Part shown: positions 9,162 through 29,024 of the stretch, in pieces
Layout of the letters: the number at the start of each line of letters is the position of its first letter
Position numbering within the stretch: position 1 is the first letter of the stretch
Origin: Candidatus Kaiserbacteria bacterium RIFCSPLOWO2_12_FULL_50_10
GTDB taxonomy: Bacteria; Patescibacteriota; Minisyncoccia; Phycocordibacterales; UBA918
DNA: 32,972 nucleotides
Assembly: GCA_001783515.1 (NCBI GenBank)
Contig: MFMN01000024.1
Span: forward strand, 1-32,972
Direction: 5' to 3'
Notes under the pieces: generated by a model
The model's database searches: none
Told to the model about the DNA's origin: nothing
What the model saw: only the letters and a program-made list of their open reading frames with translations
Made by a program: the position numbers and the translations under genes

Positions 9162-9698
9162 ATGATGAAAGAAACACTCGCATCTACGTTTGATGCACTT
9201 AAGGGACAGTTTGGCTACACCTCAAAGATGCAGGCACCTCGTATCACGAAGGTTGTCGTATCGATGGGTGTTGGTAAGATTAGCGACAAGGCACGCCTCA
9301 CGTTCATTCGTGGACGCCTCGCAAATATCACCGGTCAAAAGGTTGCTGACCGCAAGGCGAAGAAGTCAGTTGCGTCGTTCAAGGTTCGTGAAGGAGACCT
9401 CTCAGGTTTCCAGGCAACCCTCCGCGGCGACCGCAAGAACGACTTCCTCGACAAGCTCGTGCATGTAGCATTCCCGTCAACACGCGACTTCCGTGGTCTC
9501 AAGACTTCGTCAGTCGACGCGATGGGTAACTACTCAATCGGCATCCCCGAACACACCATCTTCCCTGAATGTCAGGACGATGAAATCAAGGACATTTTCC
9601 CGTTCGCGATTACCATCGTCACGACTGCAAAAACAAAGGAAGAAACCCTAGCCCTCCTCCGCCACATCGGCATGCCACTTCAAAAAGAAGTTGCGTAA
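9162..9698 (+). CDS. rplE: 50S ribosomal protein L5, full length
   Basis: APRITKVVVSMGVGKI...TGQKVADRKAKKSVASFKVREGDLSGFQATLRGDR...TIFPECQDDEIKDIFPFAITIVTTAK. Confidence 0.96.
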   Translation: MMKETLASTFDALKGQFGYTSKMQAPRITKVVVSMGVGKISDKARLTFIRGRLANITGQKVADRKAKKSVASFKVREGDLSGFQATLRGDRKNDFLDKLVHVAFPSTRDFRGLKTSSVDAMGNYSIGIPEHTIFPECQDDEIKDIFPFAITIVTTAKTKEETLALLRHIGMPLQKEVA

Positions 9699-9724
9699 AG
9701 ATTAGCGAAGAAGTAAAAGGAAAA

Positions 9725-9764
9725 CAAAATACACTACTACCATTAATGGTAGTAGTGTATTTTG
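9725..9764. terminator. Perfect 40-bp palindrome, probable bidirectional terminator
   Basis: CAAAATACACTACTACCATTAATGGTAGTAGTGTATTTTG equals its own reverse complement; lies between convergent rplE and ppa. Confidence 0.85.
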
Positions 9765-9798
9765 CTATGTCTTCAGAATTCTTACTGTTATACAGCCG

Positions 9799-10191
9799 CT
9801 AGTTTCTAACGATCCTTGATTTAAACCACTGCTCTTGGAAATTGGTAGCTTCTCGTATCTCAGCATCCGTTAACTCTACTCCTTTTGGTACTATAATCAA
9901 TTTGTCATCGTCGTCATTTTCGCGATGAATGATGGCAATACATACGCCTTCAGCTTCTTGTAGCGGTTCGGTAACACCAAGATAATATACATCTAGATCA
10001 TCACCATCTGGAGCCTTTACTCCAGGTACGTACCCGTAATTCGCTTCATATACCCAGCCATGTTTTGGATGAGTGGAACCCAGAGGACGGTCAAAAGCAA
10101 CCTTAACTTCCTTGCCAAGGTATTCCATGGCAATTTCAAGCGATTTTGATACAGAGGTTTCAACTTTTTCTTGTGGTCTAAATTTTTCCAT
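9799..10191 (-). CDS. ppa: Inorganic pyrophosphatase family protein
   Basis: ANYGYVPGVKAPDGDDLDVYYLGVTEPLQEAEGVCIAIIHRENDDDDKLIIVP. Confidence 0.88.
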   Translation of the reverse strand: MEKFRPQEKVETSVSKSLEIAMEYLGKEVKVAFDRPLGSTHPKHGWVYEANYGYVPGVKAPDGDDLDVYYLGVTEPLQEAEGVCIAIIHRENDDDDKLIIVPKGVELTDAEIREATNFQEQWFKSRIVRN

Positions 10192-10242
10192 AGGTTCATT
10201 ATATATATTATTGCAGCAAAATCTAGAACTATAACATTTTGC

Positions 10243-10324
10243 TTGACTTTGGTGGTGTTCTCTGTATAATCACTCTCACAAAGCGCCGAAAGGCTCCGAG
10301 AAAAACCCGCATATGCGGGTTTTT
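10243..10324 (+). ncRNA. Candidate very small RNA: consensus promoter directly followed by an intrinsic terminator
   Basis: TTGACT (10243-10248), 16 nt, TATAAT (10265-10270), then terminator AAAAACCCGCAT/ATGCGGGTTTTT (10301-10324); predicted transcript ~50 nt without an ORF. Confidence 0.45.
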
Positions 10325-10330
10325 CGATGC

Positions 10331-10723
10331 CTACTTGAGAAATGATTGCAGTTTTCGCTTTATGTCGCTCAGAATGCTCATAGATATTTCATACATATTT
10401 CTTTCAAGGCGTTTCACACTCACTAGTCGCATCTGAGCAAGAATTGCAGAAACATGTAGCCCATTCGGGTCGGTGAAATTAAAATAGAAGTCAATATCTT
10501 TTTGCTTTGTAGAAAGAGGAACTACCCAAAACATATGGTTGTTAAACTTCTTAATAACTAAAAGCGGACGAGAGAAATGTTGTCCTGAGCCGTTTTGTTC
10601 ATACCCAATATTCTGACCAAGACTACTCATCCATACCTCACCTTCCTTCGGAAATTTAGATGGAGGTACAGTGCTTTCATCCAGCAACTTTTTAAGCTCA
10701 TTCCAAATATCGAATATTTTCAT
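10331..10723 (-). CDS. PemK/MazF-like endoribonuclease toxin family protein
   Basis: FPKEGEVWMSSLGQNIGYEQNGSGQHFSRPLLVIKKFNNHMFWVVPLSTK; no adjacent antitoxin ORF seen. Confidence 0.75.
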   Translation of the reverse strand: MKIFDIWNELKKLLDESTVPPSKFPKEGEVWMSSLGQNIGYEQNGSGQHFSRPLLVIKKFNNHMFWVVPLSTKQKDIDFYFNFTDPNGLHVSAILAQMRLVSVKRLERNMYEISMSILSDIKRKLQSFLK

Positions 10724-10773
10724 AATAACGAGTATATCACATGATGTAGATAACAAAGAGGTTAGTTGTATTC

Positions 10774-11139
10774 TTCAAGGTTCGTGAAGGAGACCTCTTA
10801 GGTTTCCAGGCAACGCTCCGCGGTGACCGCAAGAACGACTTCCTCGACAAGCTCGTGCATGTAGCATTCCCATCAACTCGCGACTTCCGTGGTCTCAAGA
10901 CTACGTCAGTCGACGCGATGGGTAACTACTCAATCGGTATCCCAGAACATACCATCTTCCCAGAATGTTACGAGGAGGTGAATTGTCACATCGTGACAAG
11001 AGAGACTGCCCTGGGGTATGATGAGATCAAGGATATTTTCCCATTCTCAATCACTATCGTAACAACTGCGAAGAACAAAGCTGAAACCCTAGCCCTCCTC
11101 CGCCACATCGGCATGCCACTTCAGAAAGAAGTTGCGTAA
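10774..11139 (+). pseudogene. Truncated second copy of rplE (3' portion only) with a +45 nt in-frame insertion
   Basis: Strong nucleotide similarity to 9378-9698 (FKVREGDLLGFQATLRGDRKNDFLDKLVHVAFPSTRDF...MPLQKEVA); lacks about the first 72 codons. Confidence 0.9.
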
Positions 11140-11162
11140 CCGTAGTCACGAAGAGTAAAAGG

Positions 11163-11199
11163 AAAAACACCCGAAGCAAGCAATTGCCCCGGGTGTTTA
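11163..11199 (+). terminator. Intrinsic terminator after the rplE fragment
   Basis: AAACACCCG...CGGGTGTTT. Confidence 0.7.
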
Positions 11200-11216: not shown

Positions 11217-11882
11217 CTATGTTCCTATCGGACGCAGAGGTTTTGAGTGATTTTCTTTTATCTTTCTATCTAACTCCTCCCTGGACTTTTCGAGGTTACA
11301 CTTTTCAATCCTTGACTTCCAAAGATTGTAGAGTGCAATTGTGTTTGAATAATAGTCATGCTCCTTTCTCTTGTCAGATCTCTCAAATGCATAGTAAAGC
11401 CAACGATCTTCAATACTGGTGCAGAAACTATTCCCAGTGCAAGAAAATGCTGTTTCTTCATCGGCTACGCCAGCAATGAATGGAGTAGCAAATACCTCAA
11501 GAATATTTGCCCCATCTAAGTTATAGCGAGATAGAACGTTATGCTCAGTGTGTACATTCACATATTGTTCTCCAGCACGTTTAAGAATATCAGGATATAT
11601 TTTTTCCGATAATTCATTCTTCGTAAACCTAATGAGTCGTACTGGCAATGGTGTTAGTTCAATACCCTTGCTGCTCATGTAATCGTATGATCTTGTTGCC
11701 GCTGGGATATAATCGGTTAAAAAATACTTAGTCATGTCGGATGCCAATTTAACTGAATCTCGTTTGGAATTAAGTTTAAAGATTCGCCAGGTGAAGTATA
11801 TTCCAATGAGGGCAATGAGAGTGGCAATCATTGTGCCGATTTCTGCATATGCTGCAAATTCTTGTAGTGTGGTAGTTCCCAT
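11217..11882 (-). CDS. Hypothetical protein with one N-terminal TM segment
   Basis: YAEIGTMIATLIALIGIYFTWRIFKLNSKRDSVKLASDMTKYFL; DUF4760-like in style, family not confirmed. Confidence 0.7.
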   Translation of the reverse strand: MGTTTLQEFAAYAEIGTMIATLIALIGIYFTWRIFKLNSKRDSVKLASDMTKYFLTDYIPAATRSYDYMSSKGIELTPLPVRLIRFTKNELSEKIYPDILKRAGEQYVNVHTEHNVLSRYNLDGANILEVFATPFIAGVADEETAFSCTGNSFCTSIEDRWLYYAFERSDKRKEHDYYSNTIALYNLWKSRIEKCNLEKSREELDRKIKENHSKPLRPIGT

Positions 11883-11983: not shown

Positions 11984-12113
11984 CGCTGGTTCCCTCCTGG
12001 ATGACAAAAATTGTGTAAGGTGTCATAAATTGATTGAAGGTTAAAATCGATTTTAACCATTACATAATTCAAACTTATGTTCCCCCATTTTGTCATCCAG
12101 GAGGGATCCAGCG
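11984..12113. repeat. REP-like inverted repeat pair enclosing a 20-bp palindrome
   Basis: CGCTGGTTCCCTCCTGGATGACAAAA (11984-12009) and TTTTGTCATCCAGGAGGGATCCAGCG (12088-12113): 25/26 complementary. Perfect palindrome GGTTAAAATCGATTTTAACC at 12039-12058. Confidence 0.85.
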
Positions 12114-16159: not shown

Positions 16160-16852
16160 ATGCTCGACAAACATGAGATGGCTATCCGTAGCGTTTATTA
16201 CGCTGATATCTTTGGTGGGGAAAAAATTACGAGAAGTCCTTTTCCGGAGCATCTCTGGCCAGTAATGAGTTACCCTGAGAAAATCAAAGGTCTCACTGAC
16301 CGTGGCTTCAAGGATCCTCACAAGATGATTGCTTCGTTCCCCTCGATTCTTGGTTTAGCCCTCGAAAACATCGATGCAAAAATCAAAGGTCTCACTGACC
16401 GTGGCTTCAAGAATCCGAAGGGGATAATTACCAAGCACTCCCCGATTCTTGGTTTTGCCATCGAAAACATCGATGCAAAAATTAGTGGACTCATCGCTCG
16501 CGGCTTCAAGGATCCTCACAAGATGATTGCTTCGTTCCCCCCGATTCTTGGTTTAGCCTTCGAAAACATCGATGCAAAAATCAAAGGTCTCACTGACCGT
16601 GGCTTGAAGGATGTTCAGGAAAAGGTTGTTTTATCACCCCAGATTCTCAGTTACTCCTTCGAAAACATCGATAGAAAAATGAGGCTTTGCCGTAGGCTTG
16701 GCGGGAATTATCAGGACTTTCTTGATTACGGGATAATTTTTGCAGGTATGTCGCCGAAGAATTACATTCCAATTCTTCGGAAATGCAGAGAACTTGAGTT
16801 CAGCCCATCTCCTAAAAATGTCTTCAAGATATACAGGGCGAAAAGTTTTTGA
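16160..16852 (+). CDS. Tandem helical-repeat protein resembling mTERF repeats
   Basis: About four 33-aa units KIKGLTDRGFKDPHKMIASFPSILGLALENIDA; AAGGAG before ATG. Confidence 0.75.
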   Translation: MLDKHEMAIRSVYYADIFGGEKITRSPFPEHLWPVMSYPEKIKGLTDRGFKDPHKMIASFPSILGLALENIDAKIKGLTDRGFKNPKGIITKHSPILGFAIENIDAKISGLIARGFKDPHKMIASFPPILGLAFENIDAKIKGLTDRGLKDVQEKVVLSPQILSYSFENIDRKMRLCRRLGGNYQDFLDYGIIFAGMSPKNYIPILRKCRELEFSPSPKNVFKIYRAKSF

Positions 16853-27636: not shown

Positions 27637-28074
27637 ATGGACATGGATTCGTCACTATATGATGATTACCGAGCTAAGTTGGACCGGGAGTTTAACCTCA
27701 AGGCCGATCGGGTCATGAGAGCACTCTATATTTTCTTAGCGTTCTGTGTACTGCTCTGCGCTACCGTCTTCTACTTCAGTGCGAGGGAGGAGAAGTCGCG
27801 CGAAGCAGTGGTCGCGGAAGTTGTTGCGATCAAGAAGGAGCATAGTGGTGGTAGCGCTGGGGTGAGATACGACTACCTCACCTTCAAGATCAGAATTCCT
27901 CAAGGGGAGTTCTGGTCTGCGGAGGAAGTTCGCATTAAAGACTGCCCGCAAGTTTTTCATGGTCAGCTACAAAAAGTGTGGCTTGTGAGGAACGGCTACA
28001 TGTTCCGCGAAGGCGGAGAGACCTACACCACAGAAGGTTTGATCACTTTCTGCAAAACTCCCCGTGCAGGGTAA
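27637..28074 (+). CDS. Hypothetical single-TM protein, 145 aa
   Basis: RVMRALYIFLAFCVLLCATVFYFSAREE TM segment; AGGAG upstream. Confidence 0.7.
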   Translation: MDMDSSLYDDYRAKLDREFNLKADRVMRALYIFLAFCVLLCATVFYFSAREEKSREAVVAEVVAIKKEHSGGSAGVRYDYLTFKIRIPQGEFWSAEEVRIKDCPQVFHGQLQKVWLVRNGYMFREGGETYTTEGLITFCKTPRAG

Positions 28075-28199
28075 TTGTTCTTTCACCACCACTACGGCAC
28101 GGCGCAGTGGTACCTCGGGCAAGGAGAGTTGATTCATTCAGCTTCTTGCCCACTTTATTCAGCTCACGAATGGTTCGTGGGTTGATAGAGTTATTTTTT
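28073..28199 (+). promoter_or_regulatory. Structured leader/attenuator-like RNA, copy A
   Basis: ACCACT/AGTGGT; GGGCAAG...GTTGA-TTCAT-TCAGC...CTTGCCC; ACTTTATTCAGCTCACGAA-TGG-TTCGTGGGTTGATAGAGT then TATTTTTT. Confidence 0.75.
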
Positions 28200-28772: not shown

Positions 28773-28895
28773 ATGAAGGACGCCATAAGTGTACTTTCCC
28801 TGATTGCAATGGGGTTCACCGTCGCAGCCTGGATCAGGCTCCGCATGGAGCTCTCCGCAGAGCGGCGGAGAATAATGAGGTCGTGTTCCTCGTAA
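28773..28895 (+). CDS. Small putative membrane protein, 40 aa
   Basis: ATG 8 nt after the exonuclease stop: MKDAISVLSLIAMGFTVAAWIRLRMELSAERRRIMRSCSS. Confidence 0.5.
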   Translation: MKDAISVLSLIAMGFTVAAWIRLRMELSAERRRIMRSCSS

Positions 28896-28898
28896 GAG

Positions 28899-29024
28899 CA
28901 ATTGTTCTTTCACCACCACTGCGGCACGGCGCAGTGGTACCTCGGGCAAGAGACTGACTCGTTCAGTTCCTTGCCCACTTTATTCGGCCTGCAACAATTC
29001 TGTTGTGGGTCGATTGAGTTTTTT
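28899..29024 (+). promoter_or_regulatory. Structured leader/attenuator-like RNA, copy B
   Basis: ACCACT/AGTGGT; GGGCAAG-AG-ACTGA-CTCGT-TCAGT-TC-CTTGCCC; ACTTTATTCGGCCTGCAACA-ATTC-TGTTGTGGGTCGATTGAGT then T5. Confidence 0.75.

Follow-up and report, generated by a model that had tools for sequence, protein, structure and literature searches.

The ribosomal protein gene rplE is intact in the window (the whole stretch of 32,972 nucleotides that was analysed, G000:C24:1-32972, from the 819-kb draft assembly G000 of 28 contigs) and is followed by about 1 kb of low-GC cargo and then by a second, 5′-truncated copy of its own 3′ end. On the best reading of this arrangement, foreign cargo is flanked by an rplE end that was either imported or displaced. 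More specifically, we give a probability of roughly 0.55 to the proposal that foreign low-GC cargo and an rplE end of another lineage recombined at rplE by general recombination and not through an integrase. If this is true, streamlined Patescibacteria acquire accessory genes in the interval behind rplE with no integrase involved, and every such event beside this essential gene leaves a readable ribosomal-gene scar.

The second 3′ end of rplE and the DNA around it

The intact gene (copy 1) occupies 9162..9698 on the forward strand, and its bases 9374-9698, together with the 3′ untranslated region (UTR), are repeated on the same strand at 10770..11139 (copy 2). The repeat falls into two ungapped blocks, 9360-9580/10756-10976 with 91% identity and 9579-9698/11020-11139 with 86% identity, and is far above chance expectation; copy 2 still matches the Pfam family Ribosomal_L5_C (E=7.6e-17). 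A sequence-only reading of this DNA had claimed the duplication and placed it at the correct positions, and its observation that the similarity continues past the stop codon into GAAGA(A)GTAAAAGGAAAA is confirmed. The only start codon within copy 2 is an internal GTG, so that copy 2 has no usable start, is a fragment and is untranslatable as L5. Within it lies a 45-nt insert (10974-11018) that belongs to a dispersed repeat and that the sequence-only reading had passed over; it is treated separately below.

At the inner edge of the repeat, 25 bases (9374-9398) are identical in both copies. Similarity does not stop abruptly there: in the 20 bases upstream of 9374/10770 there are still 13 matches, against a maximum of 11 at control offsets within the cargo, so that the 5′ edge of copy 2 (10750..10773) is soft. 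This partial homology could be the remains of an older, eroded duplication. Past the stop codon the similarity of copy 2 runs through a short UTR and then gives way to a different terminator: copy 1 is followed by a terminator-like perfect inverted repeat (9725..9764) and copy 2 by a terminator-like hairpin (11165..11198) whose sequence is unlike that of copy 1.

The cargo between the two ends carries two genes, both on the reverse strand. One encodes an inorganic-pyrophosphatase-like protein of 130 amino acids (ppa-like; 9799..10191; PF00719, E=1.8e-8) and the other is a PemK/MazF-like toxin-type gene (10331..10723; PF02452, E=2.1e-8; PHROG MazF-like, E=2.6e-14). Both had been proposed as ppa and a PemK/MazF-like toxin, and both are present by profile match; the name ppa, however, is too strong for what is a short divergent homolog, far under the NCBIfam equivalog cut-offs (25.5 versus 200 bits). 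Homologs of the ppa-like product at 57-63% identity were found in only three of 58 other genomes searched, with more distant ones in others, and homologs of the PemK/MazF-like gene are distributed patchily among relatives. No adjacent antitoxin gene was found beside the latter. The GC content of the cargo is 0.389, compared with 0.497 for the ribosomal operon. A second PemK-like sequence, with two internal stops and probably a pseudogene, is located elsewhere in the assembly (G000:C16:17110-17451). Between the two cargo genes, at 10243-10328, there is a near-consensus promoter on the forward strand (TTGACT-16-TATAAT), and a terminator-like palindrome (10300-10325) follows it by at most about 30 bases; a very short transcript is possible.

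Beyond copy 2 lie a 221-amino-acid open reading frame on the reverse strand with no family match (11217..11882; GC 0.389) and a MITE-like element with 26-nt terminal inverted repeats (11984..12113). The family of this element, characterized by terminal inverted repeats of about 26 nt, occurs at many places in G000 and in the sister genome G001, with 52 matching stretches in G000. The window also contains a 56-nt direct repeat (28068-28123 and 28895-28950, 95% identical, 827 bases apart) and a tandem repeat of four copies with a 99-nt period (16280-16711). A simple tandem duplication of rplE together with its downstream DNA was ruled out, since the cargo and the right flank are unduplicated.

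The sister species and the ancestry of the two ends

Candidatus Kaiserbacteria bacterium RIFCSPHIGHO2_02_FULL_49_34 (G001) was the only other genome of the same genus found for comparison. It shows a similar arrangement between the same neighbours, with the ribosomal genes and rplE on one side and a MITE-like element, at the place corresponding to that in the window, and a convergent dnaB on the other. A second rplE end lies about 1.2 kb downstream of rplE in G001 and is shorter, comprising the last ~60 coding bases, the UTR and a terminator. The DNA between rplE and this second end is unrelated to the window cargo and is likewise of low GC (0.354), and no close homologs of the ppa-like and PemK-like genes were found in G001. 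The second copy starts at about codon 70 of rplE in the window and at about codon 158 in G001, a difference that could also have arisen by later deletion in G001. No such large repeat behind rplE was found in other genomes of the family. In both genomes a separate contig carries the rpsN-rpsH-rplF part of the spc operon (G000:C13:28588-28968; G001:C11:14879-15259), which in several relatives follows rplE. In this genus rplE therefore appears to end its transcription unit and, being the last in its half of a split operon, should be little disturbed by DNA placed just behind it.

An assembly artefact, in which the rplE loci of two strains were joined in one contig, has to be considered with a draft genome of 28 contigs and with copies that differ at the strain-to-species level. 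The junction near 10770, however, offers no long identical stretch to mislead an assembler, and the same kind of arrangement in the separate genome G001 makes a chimeric assembly less likely still; we regard it as improbable.

The two rplE ends of the window differ about as much as the two species do, and mainly at silent sites. There are 22.5 synonymous and 9.5 non-synonymous differences between them (dS 0.39, dN 0.04), in agreement with the earlier description of the changes as mostly synonymous. Copy 1 and copy 2 are separated from rplE of G001 by dS 0.41 and 0.25, respectively, and neighbouring ribosomal genes of the two species by dS 0.18-0.58. Twelve changes are unique to copy 2, mostly at third positions. 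The changes found only in copy 1 cluster in 9541-9638 (permutation p=0.04), a weak hint that copy 1 is a mosaic. In a phylogenetic tree, copy 1, copy 2 and the G001 sequence group with full support in a single clade to the exclusion of other genera, which places any donor within this lineage. Within the clade the three possible groupings are equally likely (AU p 0.45-0.51), so that the tree does not decide which end is native; copies 1 and 2 as sisters remain compatible with this near-trichotomy.

These values bear on a second explanation, namely that the 3′ end of rplE was duplicated in place in the ancestor of the genus, that each lineage later acquired different cargo and that the second copies eroded unevenly. 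The presence of a second rplE end with a terminator in both genomes agrees with such a history, as does the residual homology upstream of the copy 2 edge in the window, and with a near-trichotomous tree the copies could date to the species split. Against it, no other downstream DNA is duplicated, and copy 2 has kept a coding constraint that is unexpected after so long a time without a start codon. A start-less fragment under coding constraint is not what an old duplication in place should leave, just as divergence at the interspecies level is not what a recent one should leave. We consider an ancestral duplication unlikely, if worth keeping in view. Import of one end from another lineage agrees with both the constraint and the divergence.

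The 45-nt hairpin unit and the covarying RNA of relatives

The insert in copy 2 (10974..11018, forward strand) is one of 11 copies of a 45-nt hairpin unit, the others being G000:C7:28649-28693, G000:C11:37657-37701 and eight in G001. At a threshold of at most three mismatches, a search of 397 genomes of the order found it only in G000 and G001, which both belong to this genus. All but one of the 11 copies are inside MITE-like elements, and in three such elements (L074, L076 and L080) the unit is present in one arm and missing from the other, the difference being exactly 45 nt, which fixes the length of the unit with a border ambiguity of one base at most. For a dispersed sequence as small as this, the comparison of filled and empty sites is a clean one. 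Among eight distinct aligned sequences 32 of the 45 positions are invariant, and changes in the stem are compensated (covariation score 0.383 versus 0.193 in shuffles, with none of 500 shuffles as high). As 45 is divisible by three and the frame is free of stops, copy 2 stays open.

Several origins of the unit were examined. It combines a hairpin with insertion without target duplication; an IS200/IS605 or RAYT origin was nevertheless rejected because no match to the Y1 (HUH) transposase PF01797, which was present in five of 14 controls, was found in G000 or G001. A larger parent element was likewise rejected: searches of the G000 and G001 DNA gave full-length copies only, from which a parent sharing just the short ends could escape. 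No copy was found in viral contigs, and no known RNA family matched. The location of ten of the 11 copies in MITE-like DNA ruled out a reading of the insert as a translational bypass. REP/RAYT units and Rickettsia palindromic elements are short dispersed hairpin repeats, and the latter can lie in frame within coding sequence. The 45-nt unit resembles both in being a short dispersed hairpin repeat and differs from them in its length of exactly 45 nt, in its restriction to one genus and in that no Y1 transposase gene was found in either genome.

A different kind of duplication of the rplE 3′ end is seen elsewhere in the family. Six of 29 family rplE loci examined (L010, L011, L012, L013, L014 and L028) show rplE, a structured element (for example L013:1996-2214) and a second rplE-like tail. 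The tail of L011 is a perfect repeat of 33 nt and that of L013 is clear, while in the other four loci a tail at the same place is at chance level by sequence alone. Base pairing joins one strand of the element to the rplE codons around CUUGCCGUUGC, and from genus to genus this strand varies together with the codons. Two-sided compensation is seen at 18 of 34 pairs across the six sequences (8.7 in shuffles), and 97.5% of cells pair compared with 31-47% in slid controls, a percentage that leans towards the structure because the structure was drawn from the same six sequences and from predicted folds. Rfam 15 gave only sub-threshold, off-target matches, and a covariance model gave strong matches only at the loci of those six genomes among 81 sources searched; no match to this model (R1) was found in the window or in G001. 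The element is an undescribed covarying RNA. It may be intron-like, guide-carrying or regulatory, and it is a candidate for a new element of one of these types in a core ribosomal gene.

Any link between this RNA and the duplication in the window is speculative. We think it improbable, for instance, that the 3′ end of rplE is a dedicated landing pad within the family for elements that bring their own rplE end, the element in the six relatives being the structured RNA with its guide-like strand, with the window's duplication as a later state in which a guide element was lost and the cargo kept and with the 45-nt unit as a further undescribed mobile repeat.

Origin of the arrangement and its relation to known systems

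In the proposed sequence of events, an rplE 3′ end from another lineage of the same genus would have arrived together with foreign DNA of low GC content, which brought the ppa-like and PemK-like genes, and would have recombined at rplE. The gene would have been kept intact as copy 1, which may be a chimera. The other 3′ end would have come to lie beyond the cargo, along with its terminator, as copy 2, a dead fragment. General recombination could have achieved this either by a single crossover of a circle or through homologous exchange on one side and joining at an arbitrary point on the other. Patescibacteria are reported to retain recombination genes and DNA uptake (PMC12455944).

Site-specific integration is the main alternative as regards mechanism. 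The arrangement would then be the remnant of an integrative element with a recombinase targeting rplE and its own rplE 3′ end, from which the recombinase was later lost and ppa and pemK remain. In layout it matches e14 in icd (PMC11148124) and integrative and conjugative elements (ICEs) in rplL or rpsI (PMC4701971), and an att core would be expected at the position of the 25 identical bases (9374-9398). However, ORF and profile searches found no recombinase in the ~1 kb cargo. A genome-wide search limited to tyrosine recombinases gave one match per genome in G000 and G001, outside the cargo in each case. The two look like the same Xer-type gene, although the G000 match is truncated at the end of its contig. 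No att core common to the G000 and G001 insertions was found, and their second copies start at different codons. The direct repeats of streptococcal tyrosine-integrase ICEs measure 12-54 bp (PMC4701971), against ~325 bp here. A site-specific remnant is therefore doubtful. The sequence-only reading had envisaged integration into the 3′ part of the gene and is supported in part: the layout, the low-GC cargo, the divergence with constraint and the second end with other cargo in G001 speak for it, but a site-specific element is not supported, with no integrase found in the cargo and a breakpoint at ~codon 70 in one genome and ~codon 158 in the other. Since no dedicated integrase was found and the breakpoints differ between G000 and G001, we rate general or homology-facilitated recombination as at least as probable as integration at a specific site; it also needs fewer assumptions.

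A literature search for integration into rplE and for introns in this gene gave no relevant result. The closest known systems concern other genes. In Escherichia coli, prophage e14 likewise sits inside the 3′ portion of icd, a gene that is essential or central; icd stays intact with a new 3′ end, and a displaced gene fragment remains beyond the insert; this fragment is 165 bp long with 12 nucleotide changes, mostly conservative (PMC11148124). Streptococcal ICEs integrate in the 3′ end of rplL, rpsI or rpmG (PMC4701971) and similarly use the 3′ end of a ribosomal protein gene as a harmless landing site. Two features common to the e14 and ICE cases, a target gene that stays intact and another copy of its 3′ end on the distal side of the insert, are both found in the window. 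Unlike e14, a prophage with its own integrase, the insert here is a 1 kb cargo without a recombinase, and the repeat of ~325 bp shows interspecies-level divergence and a soft edge; the ICEs carry an integrase, conjugation genes and direct repeats of only 12-54 bp (PMC4701971), features that are all absent from the insert here. Homology-facilitated illegitimate recombination, established by experiments in other bacteria, allows short foreign DNA to be gained without an integrase and would give one homologous end and one arbitrary joint (PMC3240628). The layout in the window would fit this process, but 13 of 20 bases still match at the second joint, where little or no homology would be expected. 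Harmless insertions of this style are familiar, rplE being the unusual feature as a target gene, and the 45-nt unit and the covarying RNA of the relatives are less ordinary than the rplE duplication itself.
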